Assembly: GCF_947331435.1 (NCBI RefSeq)
Contig: NZ_CAMZOF010000003.1
Span: forward strand, 186,001 to 250,000
Direction: 5' to 3'
DNA length: 64,000 bases
From: Pelagibius sp. Alg239-R121
Lineage (GTDB): Bacteria; Pseudomonadota; Alphaproteobacteria; Kiloniellales; Kiloniellaceae
Each line of letters begins with the position of its first letter. The stretch's first letter is position 1. The notes beneath the pieces are model-generated. The model was not told the origin of the DNA. It ran no database searches and saw only the letters and a program-made list of their open reading frames with translations. The position numbers and the translations under genes are program-made. This document shows, piece by piece, positions 24,402-37,283 of the stretch.

Positions 24402-25895
24402 TTAGCCTGCCTTTGTCTGGATCCATATGGTTTTTGTCTGGAGGTATTGCTCGAGCGCTTCGGTGCCATTGTCACGTGCCAGCGACCCCGATTGCTTGTA
24501 GCCACCGAACGGAGTTTTGATGTCGCCTTCTGAAAATCCGTTAACCGAGACAGTGCCACAAGGAAGCGCACGGGCCATGTGGATGGCACGGTCAATGTCC
24601 TGAGTGAAAACAGTGGCGTGGAGGCCGTAATCGGTGTCACTGGCCACCGCCAAGGCCTCTTCGGTGCTCTTGGTCGGCATAATGCCCAGAACCGGACCGA
24701 AAATCTCTTCGCGGGCGATTCTCATCTCGGGCGTGACGTTCTGAAAGACCGTGGGCTCGATGAAATAGCCGGGCAGATCGCTTCCGCCGCCCATCACCTT
24801 GTCCGCACCTTCATCAACGCCGCTTTGGATGTAACTCATCACCATATCCTTGTGGTCCTTGGTGATCATCGACCCGATATCGGTGGCAGGATCCAGAGGA
24901 TCGCCCAGCCTGAATGATTTGACCCGATCGATAATGCGCCCGGTGAATTCCTCGACCAGCGGCCGCGCGATCAGCTGGCGCATATTGGCCGAACAATTCT
25001 GACCGCCGTTCCAGAAGGCCGACATCGCGGCATGTTCGATCAACTCGTCGTTGAGGACCGCATCCTCGAGCACGACAAATGGACTTTTGCCGCCCATCTC
25101 GAGACCGACACCTTTGAGGTTACTGTCACCGGAGTAACGCATGAACATCCGGCCGACCTCGGTTGATCCGGTAAAGGACACGGTATCGATATCGTTGTGA
25201 AGACCGATCGCCTTGCCTGCGGTTTCGCCAAAGCCCGGCACGATATTGATGACGCCGTCGGGCACGCCGGCCTCCTGCATCAGCTCCGCCAGCCGGATTG
25301 TACTCAGCGGGGTCTGTTCTGCCGGCTTGATGACGGCGGAACACCCCACCGCAAGCGATGGCGCGATCTTCCAGGCGGCCATGACGAGCGGAAAATTCCA
25401 TGGCAGCACGGCACCCGCGATGCCGGCGGGTTCCTTGGTGATCAGCGCCATGGCGCCAGGGCCGGTCGGCGCGATCTTCCCAAAGGTCTTGTCGGCCAGT
25501 TCCGCGTACCACTGAAAGAAATTCGGAACTTCGCCGCCGATTTCATCCAGGCAGTCATTGATGGTTTTGCCGGTATCGAGACTTTCCAGGACCGCCAGTT
25601 CATGGGTGTGTTCACGCACCAGTGCAGCGATTTTAAGCAACACCTCTTTGCGCACTTCGGGTTCTGCGCGCGACCATGTGCCGGCGTTGAAAACCCTGCG
25701 GGCAGCGGCTACAGCGCGGTCCACATCCGCGGTCTTACAATGGGCGACGCTGGCCAGTACTTGCCCTGTTGCGGGGTTGGTCGTGTCGAATTTCTCGCCG
25801 TCGGCAGCATCACAGAATTTGCCGTCAATAAAGGCCTGCCCGTTGGGGATCAGTCTTCCTGCAATGGCCTTAAACTCGCTATGTGAAAGCGTCAT
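24402..25895 (-). CDS. NAD(P)-dependent aldehyde dehydrogenase
   Basis: A 497-aa ALDH-superfamily enzyme, full length, oxidising an aldehyde to the acid. Catalytic Cys301 (NGGQNCSANMR), general base Glu266 (LEMGGKSP), Asn167 (PWNFPL) and Lys190 for cofactor binding are all present. The sequence resembles the PuuC/gamma-glutamyl-gamma-aminobutyraldehyde or betaine-aldehyde type, but the substrate cannot be fixed. It follows the epoxide hydrolase by 72 bp in the same direction, so the pair probably forms an operon controlled from the MocR/epoxide-hydrolase gap. Confidence 0.92.
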   Translation of the reverse strand: MTLSHSEFKAIAGRLIPNGQAFIDGKFCDAADGEKFDTTNPATGQVLASVAHCKTADVDRAVAAARRVFNAGTWSRAEPEVRKEVLLKIAALVREHTHELAVLESLDTGKTINDCLDEIGGEVPNFFQWYAELADKTFGKIAPTGPGAMALITKEPAGIAGAVLPWNFPLVMAAWKIAPSLAVGCSAVIKPAEQTPLSTIRLAELMQEAGVPDGVINIVPGFGETAGKAIGLHNDIDTVSFTGSTEVGRMFMRYSGDSNLKGVGLEMGGKSPFVVLEDAVLNDELIEHAAMSAFWNGGQNCSANMRQLIARPLVEEFTGRIIDRVKSFRLGDPLDPATDIGSMITKDHKDMVMSYIQSGVDEGADKVMGGGSDLPGYFIEPTVFQNVTPEMRIAREEIFGPVLGIMPTKSTEEALAVASDTDYGLHATVFTQDIDRAIHMARALPCGTVSVNGFSEGDIKTPFGGYKQSGSLARDNGTEALEQYLQTKTIWIQTKAG

Positions 25896-25967: not shown

Positions 25968-27140
25968 TTAGCCACGCAGGGTGCGGGCAAATTTACGAAT
26001 GTCATTCACCAGCAGTTCGGGCTCTTCCATTGCTGCGAAATGGCCGCCGCGGGGCATCTCGGTCCAGTGCTGGATGTTGTAAATCCGGTCTGCGTATGAC
26101 CGAGGCGGCCAATTGAGCATCTCGGCCGGAAAGACCGCGCAGCCGGTGGGGACCTCGATGCGCCGTCCCTCGGGCGACAGGATCCGCCCGCCCTCTTCGC
26201 GGCGGCCGTAGTAGATCCACGACGCGGTGTTGAACGTGCGGGTGGTGATGTAGATCATGATATTGGTCAGCAGCTCATCCTTGGAATGGGCTCTTTCGAT
26301 GCCGCCAACCTCGACATCCGACCAGTCATGAAACTTCTCGATCAGCCAGGCCGCGATCCCGACGGGGCTGTCGATCATCGCATAGCTGAGTGTCTGCGGC
26401 CGGGTTGCCTGTTGCGTGCGGTAGCCGTTCTGCATGATCTGATCGTGGTCGAACTGCGCCTCCCACGCCTTTTCCTCAGGCGTCTGCGGGCCATCAGGGT
26501 GGCGCATCGTCAGCACATTGATGTGTATCGCCGAACAGGCAGGGGCGTGGTCGTAGCCCAGCCATGAACAGATCGCCCCGCCCCAGTCCCCGCCCTGGGC
26601 CAGGTAACCGTCAAACCCCAGGGTGTCGGTCATCAGGGCGTTGATGACCGAGGCCATTTTGCGTGGCCCATAGGGCCGCGGCGGCCGCCCGGAGAATCCG
26701 AAACCGGGGAGCGAGGGCGCAATTACGGTAAAGGCGTCCTCAACATCGCCACCGAACCGCTCGGGATGCGCCAAGGGTTCGATCAGGTCGAAGAACTCTG
26801 CCACCGATCCCGGCCAGCCATGACTGATCATCAGAGGCATCGGATTATCACCGCTGCCCTTTTCATGGATGAAATGCATGTCGATGCCGCCAGCCGGCGC
26901 CTTAAAATGCGAGAACGCGTTGATCCGCGCCTCTTGCGCGCGCCAGTCAAAGCCATCAACCCAATAGGCGCACAGCTCTTTCAGGTACGCCATGTTGGTA
27001 CCGTAATCCCAGCCGCCATCATCGGGCATCTCGTGCCAGGGATAGTCCGCGACACGACTCAGGATGTTTTCCAGAACCTCGTCGGGGACGTGAAACTGGA
27101 ACGGCGTCAAATTTGGGTTGGTTGCAATACGGTCATTCAA
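25968..27140 (-). CDS. Epoxide hydrolase (EHN-type alpha/beta hydrolase)
   Basis: A 390-aa enzyme with the N-terminal EHN domain (FQFHVPDEVLENILSRVADYPW, residues 13-110) followed by an alpha/beta-hydrolase core. Oxyanion motif HGWPGS starts at His107, nucleophile Asp185 is in QGGDWGGAI, and the catalytic His367 is in MPRGGHFAAMEEP; Glu340 (FPAEML) is the likely acid. It resembles microsomal/juvenile-hormone epoxide hydrolases, opening an epoxide to a diol. With the ALDH, the MocR regulator and a TRAP importer nearby it may belong to catabolism of an imported compound. Confidence 0.9.
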   Translation of the reverse strand: MNDRIATNPNLTPFQFHVPDEVLENILSRVADYPWHEMPDDGGWDYGTNMAYLKELCAYWVDGFDWRAQEARINAFSHFKAPAGGIDMHFIHEKGSGDNPMPLMISHGWPGSVAEFFDLIEPLAHPERFGGDVEDAFTVIAPSLPGFGFSGRPPRPYGPRKMASVINALMTDTLGFDGYLAQGGDWGGAICSWLGYDHAPACSAIHINVLTMRHPDGPQTPEEKAWEAQFDHDQIMQNGYRTQQATRPQTLSYAMIDSPVGIAAWLIEKFHDWSDVEVGGIERAHSKDELLTNIMIYITTRTFNTASWIYYGRREEGGRILSPEGRRIEVPTGCAVFPAEMLNWPPRSYADRIYNIQHWTEMPRGGHFAAMEEPELLVNDIRKFARTLRG

Positions 27141-27236
27141 AAGGACAATTCCCTAGATTCAAACGGGGACCCTATCCAAGCCGGTGAGCCCGGGGTTTCT
27201 GCCTTTCAGATAACTGGAAATTTGAGAACACGGCGA

Positions 27237-27291
27237 GAGACAGGTGCGGCATTTCGAAGGGACAGATGCTTTTACCTCTGTCTCCTGAAAT
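27237..27291. promoter_or_regulatory. GACAG/TCTGTC motif cluster upstream of epoxide hydrolase
   Basis: On the plus strand GACAG occurs at 27239-27243 and again at 27261-27265, exactly 22 bp apart. The second lies in 27251-27266, whose complement reads TCTGTCCCTTCGAAAT, almost the same as TCTGTCCCTTTCAATG at 28855-28870. A facing TCTGTC copy at 27277-27291 makes an imperfect inverted repeat with it. The cluster lies 100-150 bp before the epoxide hydrolase start, just behind the MocR stop. A MocR operator is inferred; a terminator for the MocR gene is the alternative. Confidence 0.5.
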
Positions 27292-28751
27292 CACAGCATG
27301 GATCGTACTTCCTCAGCGATTACCTTCACCCCTGACTCAAGCCGGGATACAGGCACATAGGCAAAGCCAAGACGGAAACTGCGGCTGTCATTGTAGTTGA
27401 GGTAGTAATCCTGCCCCCGATCCACCAGCACGCCCTTTTCCCGCAGGCGCGCGGCCAAGGCTGTGGCGTCAAAACCCTCCGGCCCGGTCAGCCAGAAAGA
27501 CGTGCCGCCTTCGGACTGCGTCGTTTGCAACATCCCCAGGTGTTTGGTGAGCGCATCGTTCATTGTGTGCCAGCGCTTGTTGTACCGCCGTTCGATATTG
27601 CGCAGATGGGATTCGTAGTGACCCAGCCGAAAGAACAGTGCGGTGATTTCCTGTACGATCGTTGGCGGATGGCGCATCATCACACCCCGGGCGATGCGGG
27701 ACTCACGGATGATGTCCCGATGCGCAACGATGAACCCCAGGCGGATCCCGGGAGAAATGGTTTTGGACAGGCTGCCGACATAAATCACGCGTCCCGATTT
27801 ATCCATCGACCTCAGCGATGGCGAAGACTTGGCGACATAGTTCATCTCCGCCTCATAGTCGTCTTCAATGATCAGGAAATCCTTTTTGACCGCCGCTTCC
27901 AACAGTTCTTCGCGCCGCGACTGGCTCATTGTGACCATGGTCGGGAACTGATGGCTGGGTGTCGTAAAGACCAGTTGGCAGCCGGTCGGAATGGCCGCCG
28001 GGATCAGGCCTTCTCCATCAATCGGAATGCCGATCAGCTTATTGCCCGACAGACGAAACGCATTGCGGGCGCCAAAGAAGCCAGGATCTTCAAGGGCGAA
28101 AGGCTTGCCGGTCTTCGCAAAGATCGTACCCAGAATGAACAGTGCATTCTGTGACCCAAGAGTGACCAGGATCTCGTCATCTTCGGCATATATCCCGCGG
28201 GTGTTCAGCAGCCTCTGACGAAGTTGCTGGACCAGTTGCGGGCTGTCGCTTTCGACGGAATCGCTGGCCCAGACAGGCATCTGTTTGCGCCCTAAAGCTT
28301 GCCGCGTGCATTCGCGCCAGCTGTCGACCGGGAAAAGGTTCGGGTCGATCTGGTTGTAGATGAAGGGATAGGGGTAAGAGTTCCAGTCCAGAGGATTGAC
28401 CACCGGCATCAGATCGTTTGGCTGAAAACGCACCGGACAGGGGATTGCGTCGCGGTTTGCTGCTATCTCGCCGGCTGTTTTTTCAAGCTCTGCCAGATCC
28501 GGATTGACGAAGTATCCCGACCGGTCCCGCGAGACGAGCAGTTCCTGATCCACAAGGCGGTTGTAAGCTGCGAAAACCGTATTCCGGGAGACACCGAACT
28601 GCTCTCCCAACTCCCGGCAGGAAGGAAGGGGACGATCATAAGCCAACGACTTCGAAGTGATCGCTGCGCTGACCACCTCGCATATCTGATCGCGCAAACT
28701 GAGGTTGGAGTTTTCAGGTAACTTCAGAAATCGCGGTGTGGTTGAACTCAA
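27291..28751 (-). CDS. MocR-type PLP-dependent GntR transcriptional regulator
   Basis: A 486-aa fusion regulator. Residues 15-80 form a GntR winged helix (LRDQICEVVSAAI…SCRELGEQFGVSRNTVFAAYNRL). Residues 130-480 form a fold-type I aminotransferase domain with PLP-binding Lys330 (VGSLSKTISPGIRLGF), the ring-stacking/Asp region IEDDYEAEMNY and a C-terminal Arg in the substrate-binding position (SFRLGFAYV). MocR proteins such as GabR and PdxR sense amino compounds or PLP and bind direct repeats. It diverges from the TRAP operon and precedes the epoxide hydrolase-ALDH pair, and probably controls both. Confidence 0.93.
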   Translation of the reverse strand: MSSTTPRFLKLPENSNLSLRDQICEVVSAAITSKSLAYDRPLPSCRELGEQFGVSRNTVFAAYNRLVDQELLVSRDRSGYFVNPDLAELEKTAGEIAANRDAIPCPVRFQPNDLMPVVNPLDWNSYPYPFIYNQIDPNLFPVDSWRECTRQALGRKQMPVWASDSVESDSPQLVQQLRQRLLNTRGIYAEDDEILVTLGSQNALFILGTIFAKTGKPFALEDPGFFGARNAFRLSGNKLIGIPIDGEGLIPAAIPTGCQLVFTTPSHQFPTMVTMSQSRREELLEAAVKKDFLIIEDDYEAEMNYVAKSSPSLRSMDKSGRVIYVGSLSKTISPGIRLGFIVAHRDIIRESRIARGVMMRHPPTIVQEITALFFRLGHYESHLRNIERRYNKRWHTMNDALTKHLGMLQTTQSEGGTSFWLTGPEGFDATALAARLREKGVLVDRGQDYYLNYNDSRSFRLGFAYVPVSRLESGVKVIAEEVRSML

Positions 28752-28832
28752 CTGGTTGCTCCAGGGTGCTGCGGTCTTTCTTCTGCGCCGGATACTAGCC
28801 GATTCCGCGCGCGCGTCTCAGGCATAAACCAT

Positions 28833-28868
28833 TCTGTCACCTTCTTTCAAACTATCTGTCCCTTTCAA
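28833..28868 (+). promoter_or_regulatory. Direct repeat TCTGTC…CTTTCAA in the MocR/TRAP divergent promoter
   Basis: Two copies of TCTGTC start at 28833 and 28855, 22 bp (two helical turns) apart. Each is followed by CTTTCAA (at 28844-28850 and 28862-28868). The site lies between the divergent MocR and TRAP genes, about 80-100 bp from each start. Direct repeats with this arrangement are typical MocR binding sites, and related copies lie before the epoxide hydrolase gene. Operator function is inferred. Confidence 0.55.
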
Positions 28869-28929
28869 TGGCGAATAGTGCGGTGAAAGATGTGGCCAAG
28901 CAAAAATTATTCAACGGGAGACGAGATCG

Positions 28930-29970
28930 ATGAGGATGAAATCCGTTTGCAAGGCGCTATGCATTGCATCAATCGCGGCAATGTTTGCGCAACCTGCTGC
29001 TGCCGAAAAAGTTCTGAAGCTGGGCACGGTAGGCTTTCTGGGCATGCCGATTGGGGACGCCATTGATCAGGCACTGATCCCGACATTGGAAAAGGTGTCC
29101 GGCGGCAAGATGAGCATCGAGCCGCATTACCGGAAGTCGCTGTGCAGTGAGCAATCCTGCGGGGAGCAGGCCAATCAGGGTCTGTTGGCGCTCTGGACGA
29201 GTTCGACCGCGAACTTCGGCAATTTCGGCACTTCCCTGGCGATTTTTGACCTGCCCTATATCTTTAAAAGCATTGAAGACGCAGATCGCATTTCGTCAGA
29301 ATGGCTGGCCAAAAAGCAATGCGATATTGCCGCCGAAGAGGCCGGTCATGTTTGCCTGACCGTTTATTCCAGCGGTGGTTTCCGCCAGCTTGGCAACGCC
29401 CATGGTCCCGTGCATGTGCCCTCGGACATGGAAGGCATCAAATGGCGTGTAACCAAAAGCCCGATCGAATATACGCTGATCAAGAACTGGGGCGCGGTGC
29501 CGGTGCCCTATGACTGGTCACAGCTCTATCAGGGCCTGCAAACCGGGGTGGTCTCGGGCCAGTATGTTGCAACGCCCTGGCAGCATGTCGCCAAGCTGCA
29601 CGAGGTCGCGAAATACTTCACCGAAATCGGCGGTTCTTGGTCTGGCAACCAGTTGTCGATGGACAAGCGCCAGTACGATGCGCTGAGCGACGAGGAAAAG
29701 GCATGGCTGCACGAAGCTGCGCAGGCCTTTGGTCAGCGTGTGCAGGAGCTTGATCGCGCATGGGTCGAAGCCGGCGAGACCGCCATCAAGGCCACGATCA
29801 AAGAATGGTATGTCCCGACAGAAGAAGAGCTTGTGAAATGGCGCGCCGGTGCGATCGACGCCTGGCTCAATGCTAAGGGTACCTTCGATCCTGCAACCGC
29901 AGAGCGCGTTCTGGAAGAACAGGGTATGACCGACTTCATCGCGCAGCTCAAGGAAGCTGGCGCGCTGTAA
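28930..29970 (+). CDS. TRAP transporter substrate-binding protein (second system)
   Basis: A 346-aa DctP-family periplasmic protein with a Sec signal peptide (VCKALCIASIAAMFAQPAAA, cleavage before EKVLKLG). GGGAGA precedes the ATG. The core carries the DctP pattern including MEGIKWRVTKSPIEYTLIKNWGAVPVPYDWSQLYQGLQTGVV, with the conserved Arg in KWRVTKS probably binding the ligand's carboxylate. A paired cysteine segment KSLCSEQSCGEQ (about 70-80) may form a disulfide. It lies divergently from the MocR gene and is followed by a hairpin and two permeases. The substrate is unknown. Confidence 0.92.
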   Translation: MRMKSVCKALCIASIAAMFAQPAAAEKVLKLGTVGFLGMPIGDAIDQALIPTLEKVSGGKMSIEPHYRKSLCSEQSCGEQANQGLLALWTSSTANFGNFGTSLAIFDLPYIFKSIEDADRISSEWLAKKQCDIAAEEAGHVCLTVYSSGGFRQLGNAHGPVHVPSDMEGIKWRVTKSPIEYTLIKNWGAVPVPYDWSQLYQGLQTGVVSGQYVATPWQHVAKLHEVAKYFTEIGGSWSGNQLSMDKRQYDALSDEEKAWLHEAAQAFGQRVQELDRAWVEAGETAIKATIKEWYVPTEEELVKWRAGAIDAWLNAKGTFDPATAERVLEEQGMTDFIAQLKEAGAL

Positions 29971-30075: not shown

Positions 30076-31365
30076 ATGGAAAGCATTGCGCTTCTGATCG
30101 TTCTGGTGCTGCTGATCCTGCTTGGTGCTCCGGTTGGCTTCACGATGATCCTGATCCCGGTGGTCTATATCATGATCACCGACGTCGCTCCGATGATCTT
30201 GATCCCCAGTCAGATGTTCAGCGCCATCGATTCAGTGCCCCTCACTGCGATTCCGTTTTTCATGCTGACCGGTGAGCTGATGACCAGCGCCACCATCACT
30301 GACCGGCTGGTGGAGTTGAGCCAGCGTCTGATCGGCCGGATGCGGGGCAGCATGGCGCAGGCCAACGTGCTGGTCAGCATGTTCTTTGCCGGAATGAACG
30401 GCTCTGTGGTGGCGGATACGGCGACCGTGGGTTCGCTACTGGTGCCGGCTATGAAACGCGCGGGGTATCCGGCCGCTTTTGCTGCTGCGATCACGGCCGT
30501 CAGTTCCACAATTGGCGGGATCATCCCACCCTCGATCATGATGATTGTCCTCGCAAATGCAGGCGGCATTTCGGTGGGGGCGCTTTTCGCAGGTGGAATC
30601 GTGCCGGGTATCCTGATCGGCATTCTTCTGATGGTGATCAACTACATCATTGCCAGACGTAATAATTTCGAACGCAGCGAGGAACCTTTCAGCCTGAAGG
30701 CGATAGCCATCGTCGGCTACAAATCCTCCTTTGCGCTGCTCATTCCTATCGTGCTGGTCGGCTCGGTCGTCTTTGGCATCGCAGGCGTTGTCGAAGCCGG
30801 CGCCCTGACCGCAACAATAGCCCTCTTCGTCGGGCTGTTCATCTATCGTACGATCACCTGGACCAACTGTAAGAGCGCCTTTGTCCGCGCGTTCCGGAAC
30901 TCTGCGATGGTGTTCATCATCATCGCTGCAGCGGGGCCGTTCAGCTGGCTTCTGACGTCGCTCGGGGCGATAAACCAGCTCGAGATGTGGCTGCTAAGCT
31001 ACACTTACAATCCACTTCTCTTCGCGCTGGTGCTGGTTCTCTTCATCTGTCTGCTCGGTATGGTGATGGATTCGGCCGCAAATATCATCGTGGCCGGGCC
31101 TGTGCTGGTAGATGTGATGGTGAAAGCAGGTTATCCCGACGTACAGGCGGCACTTGTCGTCGTTGTCGGGTTCCTGATCGGGTCCGTCACCCCACCCGTG
31201 GGCGTGGCGTTCTTCACCGCAGGTGCAATAGCAGAAGTGCGGTTGGAAAAAGTTGCAATAGCGATGTTGCCCTATCTCGTTGCGCTTTTTGCCCTATTGT
31301 TTGTTCTGATCGTCATTCCGGACATCACGATGTTTCTTCCCCGTGCTTTTGGCTTCTCGAATTGA
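30076..31365 (+). CDS. TRAP transporter large permease (second system)
   Basis: A 429-aa DctM-family integral membrane protein with about 12 helices. Family signatures are IPFFMLTGELMTSA, MNGSVVADTATVGSLLVPAM, TIGGIIPPSIMMIVLA, and the second-half counterpart VGFLIGSVTPPVGVAFF. Unlike the usual order, the large permease comes directly after the binding protein and before the small permease. Confidence 0.93.
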   Translation: MESIALLIVLVLLILLGAPVGFTMILIPVVYIMITDVAPMILIPSQMFSAIDSVPLTAIPFFMLTGELMTSATITDRLVELSQRLIGRMRGSMAQANVLVSMFFAGMNGSVVADTATVGSLLVPAMKRAGYPAAFAAAITAVSSTIGGIIPPSIMMIVLANAGGISVGALFAGGIVPGILIGILLMVINYIIARRNNFERSEEPFSLKAIAIVGYKSSFALLIPIVLVGSVVFGIAGVVEAGALTATIALFVGLFIYRTITWTNCKSAFVRAFRNSAMVFIIIAAAGPFSWLLTSLGAINQLEMWLLSYTYNPLLFALVLVLFICLLGMVMDSAANIIVAGPVLVDVMVKAGYPDVQAALVVVVGFLIGSVTPPVGVAFFTAGAIAEVRLEKVAIAMLPYLVALFALLFVLIVIPDITMFLPRAFGFSN

Positions 31366-31441
31366 TGCGCGCCGGAGCTCTCAAACTCCCCTGTAGCAGC
31401 ACACGGGCATGTGCTGTGAAAAATCGCCGGAGGTCTTTAAT

Positions 31442-31999
31442 ATGCTAGCTACTGTCGGTTTCGTAGATCGCACGGTCAAAAAGACTCTGACTGCCTTTTG
31501 CGCCATTCTTCTTTTGTTGATGGTGGTCTTTACAGTCTACTCCGTCGTGATGCGTTATGTTTTTGAAAACCCACCTGTGTGGGGAGATCTCCTGACCGTT
31601 CTCAGCAACATCTGGTTGGTCTTTTTTGCTCTTGCACTGACGGTGCGGGACAAGGATCACATCGCGTTGGACTTGATCTATTCCTGGCTCCCCCTGAAAG
31701 CCGCGTTCGCCATTCAACAATTCTGGTCACTGATCATATTTGGCCTGGGTCTCATCATGATCATTTACGGAATGGAAGCGGTTTCCACCATGGGCGGCAA
31801 ATACTGGGAGATGTGGTATTTCGCCTGGGAGGACGGCGGGTTCGTTTTTAAACCGAACTACATGCCCAAAAAATATGCTATCGCCATCGTTCCAATCTCA
31901 GGATTGCTTGTCAGTATTGCAGCGCTGGCTTCGATCATCGAAGACAGTATGCGATTGAGAGCGGGCAAGTACGAATTAGTTAAAGATCTGGAAAACTAA
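31442..31999 (+). CDS. TRAP transporter small permease (second system)
   Basis: A 185-aa DctQ-family protein with four membrane segments. The ATG at 31442 is preferred because GGAGG lies eight bases upstream; the open frame extends to an ATG at 31409 without such support. Typical features are YSVVMRYVFENPPVWGDLL, FALALTVRDKDHIALDL and the late helix AIAIVPISGLLVSIAALAS. It completes the second TRAP transporter. Confidence 0.9.
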   Translation: MLATVGFVDRTVKKTLTAFCAILLLLMVVFTVYSVVMRYVFENPPVWGDLLTVLSNIWLVFFALALTVRDKDHIALDLIYSWLPLKAAFAIQQFWSLIIFGLGLIMIIYGMEAVSTMGGKYWEMWYFAWEDGGFVFKPNYMPKKYAIAIVPISGLLVSIAALASIIEDSMRLRAGKYELVKDLEN

Positions 32000-32243: not shown

Positions 32244-33056
32244 TCAAGCATCGCCCCGATGGTGCCCAATCTCGAAATTGTTGCGGCCGGTTCGGTCTTT
32301 TCCACGCAACAGCCATAACGGTCGTTCAGCGAAGTTGACAGGAACGCCGCTCTTTCCATCCAAGGGATTGAGGTTTCGTTCGAACACGGAAGTCGCAGGC
32401 ATGTAGCGGATCGCCACACCCGCGCGTCGTCTTGGCGAGCTATTCGCCGCAGCACCGTGGATCATGTAGACGTCGTGCATGGACATTTGGCCGGGCTCCA
32501 AAACTAGATTTACAGCCTTCTTTTCATCAAAGGCATTCTGAACAGTACTGTCGCTCAGGGCGATATCTTCACGATCGTCCCGTACATGACCGAACAGCGT
32601 TTGTTCCTTGTGCGATCCCGGAACAACCCTCAAGCAGCCGTTTTCAATCGTGGAATGGTCCAATGCAATCCAGACCGTGCAGGTGGCAAGCGGCCTGATT
32701 GGCCAGTAATGTCCATCCTGATGCCACGGTGTTTCGTAGCCCGTACCACCGGGTTTGCAGAATATGTGGCAGCCCCAGAGGATGATGTCCTCGCCGATCA
32801 GATTGGATACGAGATCGATGATGTCCGGACGCTGGGCGAGCTGCAAAAACGTACCACTGCCATATACACCTTCCGAGTTTCGCCCCTCGATATGGGCGCT
32901 CACAAGTTTCTCCGGGCGGACGTCCGGGTTCGCTCTGATGAGTTCGTCCAGTGCCGAACGCAGATGTTTGATTTCTTCATCCGGCAAGCGGAAGTGCGGA
33001 ATTACATAGCCGTCGCTGCGATATTTTGCGACTTCATCGGGCGTTAAGCGAGGCAT
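32244..33056 (-). CDS. Phytanoyl-CoA dioxygenase (PhyH) family protein
   Basis: A 270-aa Fe(II)/2-oxoglutarate-dependent oxygenase homologue, full length. Metal ligands His112 and Asp114 (WHQDGHYW) and His200 (MIHGAAANSS) are present, as is Arg211 for 2-oxoglutarate. Members hydroxylate diverse small molecules (for example ectoine or phytanoyl-CoA), so no substrate is assigned. It faces the second TRAP operon convergently, with 244 bp between the stops, and could act on the transported compound; that is speculative. Confidence 0.88.
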   Translation of the reverse strand: MPRLTPDEVAKYRSDGYVIPHFRLPDEEIKHLRSALDELIRANPDVRPEKLVSAHIEGRNSEGVYGSGTFLQLAQRPDIIDLVSNLIGEDIILWGCHIFCKPGGTGYETPWHQDGHYWPIRPLATCTVWIALDHSTIENGCLRVVPGSHKEQTLFGHVRDDREDIALSDSTVQNAFDEKKAVNLVLEPGQMSMHDVYMIHGAAANSSPRRRAGVAIRYMPATSVFERNLNPLDGKSGVPVNFAERPLWLLRGKDRTGRNNFEIGHHRGDA

Positions 33057-36647: not shown

Positions 36648-37283
36648 TCAGATCGCCCGACGCCGCCGGGCAACGCCGAACCCTACAAGGCCGAGACTCA
36701 GGATGGCCAGCGAGCCCGGTTCGGGGACGGAGACGGTCCGCGGTGTGACTCTGAATCTCAAGTCGCATCCGGCATTATCGACTCCACATCCGGGAACGTT
36801 GCTGTCGGCGAGCATTTGCCCGCTGGCATAGGGATCATCTCGCGATAACCGCAGGCCCCAACGTTCACTGCCGCCGGGAATGAAAGCCGCCGCTGTGTAG
36901 GTCTGCCCAATGGTCAGCGCCACTGAACTCAAGTCGACATTATAAAACGCATCGAAATCCTCAGCCAGACCGAAGCCGTGGCTGAAGAGCAGTGGGCCGC
37001 CGGTCCCGGCACCATCGTAAAGCCGGAACTCCAAAGGATCGTTCGGAGAGCCCAGATTTAACTCGCGGTACCAAAAGGCGAAGCTCACCAGCGCGTCTTC
37101 GGCGACAAAAGACTGGCCAAGCGGTTCGGAAAATTCGATCTGAGCAGTGATAGTGCCTTCGTCCTGCAGAATAACGGCAGCATCCACTTGATGAGGGGTG
37201 GCCAACATCCCGAACAATGCCAGGCCGAACAGCACCGATAAAAAATTCTGAAAATGTACTAAAATCAATTCTCTGACTTCCAT
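36648..37283 (-). CDS. PEP-CTERM sorting-signal protein
   Basis: A 211-aa exported protein. It has an N-terminal signal segment (LSVLFGLALFGMLATPHQVDA) and a beta-rich middle domain (DDALVSFAFWYREL-like region, RLYDGAGTGGPLLFSHGF). It ends in a canonical PEP-CTERM tripartite tail: VPEPGSLAILSLGLVGFGV followed by ARRRR. Such proteins are cut and anchored by an exosortase (EpsH/XrtA), usually with exopolysaccharide secretion. No exosortase or polysaccharide genes are in this window. The terminator behind it supports independent transcription. Confidence 0.87.
   Translation of the reverse strand: MEVRELILVHFQNFLSVLFGLALFGMLATPHQVDAAVILQDEGTITAQIEFSEPLGQSFVAEDALVSFAFWYRELNLGSPNDPLEFRLYDGAGTGGPLLFSHGFGLAEDFDAFYNVDLSSVALTIGQTYTAAAFIPGGSERWGLRLSRDDPYASGQMLADSNVPGCGVDNAGCDLRFRVTPRTVSVPEPGSLAILSLGLVGFGVARRRRAI

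Follow-up and report, generated by a model that had tools for sequence, protein, structure and literature searches.

A CTGTC direct-repeat motif as predicted operator of a MocR-type regulator beside TRAP transporter and epoxide hydrolase genes

Two pairs of CTGTC half-sites, one on either side of a mocR gene in Pelagibius sp. Alg239-R121, are with high probability the operators of the MocR protein encoded between them and would form one regulon, as judged from comparative evidence. The first pair, R1, would serve the divergent dctPMQ operon of a TRAP transporter, and the second, R2, the operon behind mocR, which encodes an epoxide hydrolase (EH) and, where present, an aldehyde dehydrogenase (ALDH). 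The window stands here for the whole analysed stretch of DNA, 64,000 nucleotides in length; its features are collected in Table 1.

Repeat pairs in the window and in orthologous loci

The pattern CTGTC-N17-CTGTC has exactly two matches in the window, where 0.08 are expected, and these are R1 and R2. Hence, the claim of the first-pass annotation that CTGTC pairs at 22 bp occur at the MocR/TRAP promoter and in front of the EH gene was confirmed, and they are the sole pairs of this kind in the window. R1 is located in the 178-bp gap between mocR and dctP, while R2 is found on the EH coding strand within the 150 bp that separate the mocR end from EH, and each of them is oriented toward its own target gene. 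Two further details of the annotation had to be corrected. First, TCTGTC had been taken as the core, but the second EH-side box reads CCTGTC, so the core is CTGTC; the hexamer alone occurs at chance frequency in the window (30 observed vs 29.4 expected). Second, the long context TCTGTCCCTT shared by both regions was dropped as a regulon signature, because its two copies are out of register, one surrounding the second box of its pair and the other the first box. Among orthologues the box contexts are site-specific, with ATCTGTCCYTT...ATCTGTCACTTTC on the dctP side and CTGTCCCTTCGAAA...ACCTGTCTCTCG on the EH side. The bare pair is likewise at chance level across the 8.0-Mb genome, with 17 matches as compared to 17 for the reversed pattern. 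Hence, the repeat alone defines no site, and the case has to be made by position and conservation.

Table 1. Coordinates of genes and predicted regulatory elements in the window.
Feature	Position	Strand	Remarks
Aldehyde dehydrogenase (ALDH), PuuC/KauB-like	24402..25895	-	PF00171; omega-amino-aldehyde type by similarity
Epoxide hydrolase (EH)	25968..27140	-	EHN domain; HGWPG and GGDWG motifs
Putative -10 of EH gene, TTATCT	27208..27213	-	Same offset from R2 as dctP -10 from R1; conserved columns 51-57; predicted
Operator 2 (R2), predicted	27239..27265	-	CTGTCCCTTCGAAATGCCGCACCTGTC; boxes 27265-27261 and 27243-27239; precedes EH
MocR/GabR-type regulator	27291..28751	-	GntR wHTH and fold-I aminotransferase domain; PLP lysine in SLSKT
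Putative mocR promoter	28792..28820	-	-35 CTGAGA 28820-28815, 17 bp, -10 TAGTAT 28797-28792; predicted
Operator 1 (R1), predicted	28834..28860	+	CTGTCACCTTCTTTCAAACTATCTGTC; boxes 28834-28838 and 28856-28860; between mocR and dctP
Putative -10 of dctP, AAAGAT	28886..28891	+	52 bp past box 1 start; conserved columns 50-57; predicted
TRAP solute-binding protein DctP	28930..29970	+	PF03480
TRAP large permease DctM	30076..31365	+	PF06808
TRAP small permease DctQ	31409..31999	+	PF04290; ATG near 31442 may be the true start

A scan of genomes yielded 57 loci, and about 50 cassette loci became available in all, counting the additional G011, G213 and G405. In these cassettes dctPMQ is divergent from mocR, which is followed by EH, and ALDH is present in about two thirds of them. 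The hosts, mostly marine bacteria, belong to the Rhodobacterales, Rhodospirillales, Hyphomicrobiales and several gammaproteobacterial orders, together with one metagenome-assembled genome labelled Acidimicrobiales. The exact pair was found in all 49 mocR-dctP regions of the orthologues and in 46 of the 50 mocR-EH regions, and [C/T]TGTC-N17-CTGTC matches 50/50 of the latter. The four EH-side exceptions, which form a subgroup (L062, L065, L066 and L071), carry TTGTC as first box at unchanged spacing; in the mocR-EH regions of L066 and L071 a third CTGTC box follows 26 bp further on. After removal of similar loci, the exact pair was still present in 42/42 mocR-dctP and 38/42 mocR-EH regions. Loci lacking the 22-bp motif were looked for among the homologues and none was found, since all 47 orthologous loci with both regions carry both sites.

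The probability that the repeats appeared in two promoters by chance is practically nil. CTGTC is a short sequence and the bare pair is no more frequent genome-wide than expected, which would be compatible with such an origin, but effectively all of the 99 orthologous regions, belonging to two classes, have kept the pair. In the aligned rows with the exact pair the boxes are 100% identical, whereas the flanks are only 24-34% (about 30%) identical between loci. Moreover, of all direct 5-mer repeats the most frequent is CTGTC at a distance of 22 bp, present in 95 of these regions, as compared to 0.03/99 in shuffled regions, and the runner-up, the overlapping TCTGT, is far behind (37/99). A chance origin was examined within the window, across the genome, among orthologues and against shuffled regions, and it was the orthologue comparison that ruled it out.

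Close MocR and EH orthologues are absent from three other species of the window's genus, and within the family they were found in G011 only. This scattered occurrence and the intact operators point to possible movement of the cassette as a unit.

The extent of the regulon was examined with the extended pattern CTGTCMY-N13-AYCTGTCNC in 37 cassette-bearing genomes. It matched in 36 of them, with about two matches each, almost all of which are cassette sites. The reversed extended pattern, used as control, gave no match in these genomes, and a control pattern with 23-bp spacing gave two, neither in a cassette. About two extended sites per genome indicate that the regulon is local. An extra operator-like site was observed in alpha proteobacterium HTCC2255 (L169:8943-8969), a near-copy of its own dctP-side site; this third site precedes a gene for a DAO-type oxidoreductase and, after it, those for a PotA-type ABC transporter, and a cupin gene with DMSP-lyase domain lies on its opposite side.

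The regulator and its relatives

The protein encoded between the operators has an N-terminal GntR wHTH and a C-terminal aminotransferase-like domain, i.e. the MocR/GabR-type architecture (Pfam PF00392 at residues 20-82 and PF00155 at residues 170-477), and it matches the structure of GabR (4n0b, E=1.4e-41). The operators also have the MocR-type arrangement, being direct repeats separated by whole helical turns in the divergent gap as well as before EH. The SLSKT-type motif, which aligns with the S-x-S-K region of solved aminotransferases, occurs in all 50 MocR orthologues, and the PLP lysine together with a C-terminal arginine is retained in 50/50. Their retention makes an amino-carboxylate effector plausible by analogy with GabR.

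Among the 69 MocR proteins placed on a tree, there is a single change of motif label, and the clade with the CTGTC motif has a support of 100. Sister MocRs of the same clade (46-56% identical) adjoin other genes and yet keep the CTGTC-22 pair; their neighbours are a class III aminotransferase with a DAO oxidoreductase and an ABC transporter, or a choline-sulfatase-like gene in L084. No pair was present within the stretches examined for eight relatives of the EH (56-74% identical) that have neither mocR nor TRAP genes. In two cassettes mocR and EH are separated by inserted foreign genes, several kilobases in L034 and about 0.8 kb in L039, and the pair is still found immediately before EH. No pair was seen upstream of mocR in L068 and L073; the TRAP genes are also absent from the stretch of L068, and the upstream sequence of L073 is short. 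Hence, the motif goes with the MocR clade whatever the target genes are, which makes one regulon under this MocR the best reading, and the proposal of a single regulon made in the first-pass annotation gains support from this distribution and from the joint occurrence of both sites. The conservation of the pairs shows that they have a function and are linked to the MocR clade.

It is highly improbable that the repeats are unrelated to MocR and serve either as conserved elements of the promoters or as the binding site of another regulator. Their fixed distance from -10-like elements would fit such an origin, but they segregate with the MocR clade and persist where the target genes differ, they are missing at the EH relatives without mocR, and TauR-type MocRs combine another half-site with a spacing that is equal or almost equal. 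In Rhodobacteraceae bacterium Alg231_04 (L084:7971-9516), a MocR paralogue belonging to the CTGTC clade has CTGTC-22 pairs on either side, which precede the class III aminotransferase and the choline-sulfatase-like gene.

The name given to the regulator by the NCBI family model is PdxR, which would imply control of vitamin B6 genes. This assignment is extremely improbable. The protein scores 351.8 with the equivalog model NF052282 (cut-off 320), but the xsc-adjacent TauR (L160:7870-9327) also passes this cut-off with 348.5; furthermore, the operator sites are situated at TRAP and EH genes, and no pdx gene is found in the cassette or its conserved neighbours. Membership in PdxR was rejected because NF052282 captures TauR as well and is hence over-general, and the NCBI name PdxR appears to be applied too widely.

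Of the neighbouring clades whose role is known in part, TauR is the nearest, and it shares the MocR architecture and the two direct repeats with the cassette regulators. At the TauR loci L157 and L160, which adjoin xsc, direct repeats of CTGG[AC] are spaced by 22 bp; in further TauR-like members the period is 22-23 bp, although not all of these showed a pair of this kind in the stretch examined. However, the half-site is CTGG[AC]C in TauR and CTGTC in the cassette orthologues, the cassette MocR is 37-39% identical to the xsc-adjacent regulators and belongs to a separate clade with a support of 100, and its targets are TRAP, EH and ALDH genes and not tau/xsc genes. No tau/xsc gene was found in the conserved cassette, and a direct connection to taurine gained no support, the xsc genes being located elsewhere. 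Membership in TauR was rejected on half-site, clade and targets, and on this comparison CTGTC is a sister code to CTGG[AC]. In the DNA-binding domain, cassette MocRs have R20, C24, E25 and F60 at positions where the TauR group has Q, R, R and V/T; residue 60 probably lies in the recognition helix. GabR of Bacillus subtilis uses the half-site ATACCA at a spacing of 34 bp and targets gabTD, so half-site, spacing and target are unlike those of the cassette MocR, whereas the two-domain family, the retained PLP lysine and the direct-repeat operator between regulator and divergent target are common to both.

Direct repeats separated by a whole number of helix turns are well described as MocR operators, and the TauR half-site is given as CTGGACYTAA in PMC5320631. 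The same source contains a predicted TauR2 regulon (Suvorova and Rodionov 2016; PMC5320631) with TRAP transporters of unknown specificity, an ALDH (COG1012) and a COG596 hydrolase. TauR2 resembles the present system in its TauR-like motif and in these TRAP, ALDH and hydrolase members, but tauE, oppABCDF, COG523 and COG1574 are also listed there and none of them occurs in the cassette. The TauR2 regulon may thus include the cassette in part. The annotation had stated that a pathway with exactly this gene set was not known to it, which has to be qualified in view of the members listed for TauR2 in PMC5320631. A literature search for sets of MocR, TRAP and epoxide hydrolase, including Roseobacter, returned nothing. 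Because of this possible overlap the regulon is not claimed as unseen, and direct-repeat operators of MocR proteins were already known.

Taken together, it is quite possible, if still tentative, that MocR proteins of a clade separate from TauR, having CTGTC-22 as a code of their own, control an undescribed catabolic module. In it an amino-carboxylate would enter through the TRAP transporter and would be hydrolysed, as such or as a derivative, by an epoxide-hydrolase-type enzyme; this module would be widespread in mostly marine Proteobacteria, and sister regulators would use the code for aminotransferase operons. The co-occurrence of operator, regulator and a compact gene set in dozens of genomes makes the substrate findable, and a compound that induces dctP or EH, or that binds DctP or MocR, would name the pathway. 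Moreover, the natural pair of half-sites CTGTC and CTGG[AC], with near-equal spacing and few clade-specific residues, makes the DNA specificity of MocR proteins directly testable.

Promoter geometry and sign of control

In both target promoters, a -10-like element is found at a constant offset from the boxes (columns 50-57 after the box 1 start). The -10 assignments are weak, the hexamers differing between both promoters, and they may be offset by one base. The mocR promoter was read from the sequence, its TA and TNTCA columns being conserved in orthologues, and the R1 boxes lie upstream of its putative -35. The predicted start sites would place box 2 at roughly -40 and box 1 at roughly -62, with -35 hexamers of poor quality. 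An activator that touches RNA polymerase is usually positioned near -40 at a promoter with a poor -35. Hence, the fixed distance between boxes and -10, box 2 near -40 and the poor -35 suggest activation from about -40/-62, and it is likely from this geometry that MocR, given that it binds, acts as activator. A MocR dimer would probably contact both boxes of a pair, which are on the same DNA face about two helical turns apart, and activation, the mode of action of GabR and TauR, would follow the binding of an amino-carboxylate effector to the aminotransferase domain with its PLP.

It is unlikely, though to be taken seriously, that MocR works at the same operators as a repressor of dctPMQ and EH-ALDH and is released from the DNA by the effector. 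Box 2 abuts the -35 region, and a bound protein could hinder RNA polymerase there; against this, a position near -40 at a poor -35, like that of box 2, is usual for an activator. Among relatives, the MocR-type regulator of ectoine use, EnuR, represses according to PMC8739950, whereas the direct-repeat relatives with data, GabR and TauR, are described in PMC5320631 as activating from their direct repeats.

Target genes and possible chemistry

With activation by MocR as the preferred reading, the whole would represent a local, substrate-induced module for uptake and catabolism, in which the TRAP transporter imports a small acid, this acid or a derivative is hydrolysed by EH, and an aldehyde formed later is oxidised by ALDH in the loci that have it. 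DctP aligns through the arginine typical of carboxylate binding in TRAP binding proteins, where this residue usually holds the carboxylate. The nearest solved relatives were searched for a DctP ligand and are too distant to name one.

The EH is a predicted epoxide hydrolase with an EHN domain (PF06441, 3.6e-32), an HGWP oxyanion motif, the nucleophile Asp in GGDxG and a catalytic His, and it matches PDB 5f4z over its full length (1.5e-84). HGWPG and GGDWG are present in all 47 cassette EHs, and GGHF[AS] in 40 of the 47. The HGWP and GGD motifs and the full-length match are shared with the EHN-type epoxide hydrolases 5f4z and 4i19; the known enzymes of this type serve other pathways, while the cassette EH is tied to a TRAP transporter and MocR. 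The ALDH scores below the cut-off of the PuuC model, and its best solved relatives include KauB (6b4r) and the PuuC-type 4lih.

The product of an epoxide hydrolase is a diol, which must become an aldehyde first, so a direct sequence of EH and ALDH is chemically incomplete. ALDH is absent beside EH in about a third of the loci, and since it is not constant, the proposed chemistry is not forced by the gene content. A constant extra enzyme downstream of EH/ALDH was searched for in the orthologous loci, and none was found beyond the cassette.

Some neighbouring genes of the window were also noted. A PhyH-family dioxygenase gene (32244-33056, minus strand) adjoins the TRAP operon and is not a conserved part of the cassette. 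The protein encoded at 34574-35455 matches PF10563 (E 6.8e-82), the delta carbonic anhydrase family, which is known best in algae of the sea. Finally, a small exported protein is encoded at 36648-37283 on the minus strand, and its C-terminal VPEPGSLAILSLGLVGFGVARRRRAI is a PEP-CTERM-like sorting signal.
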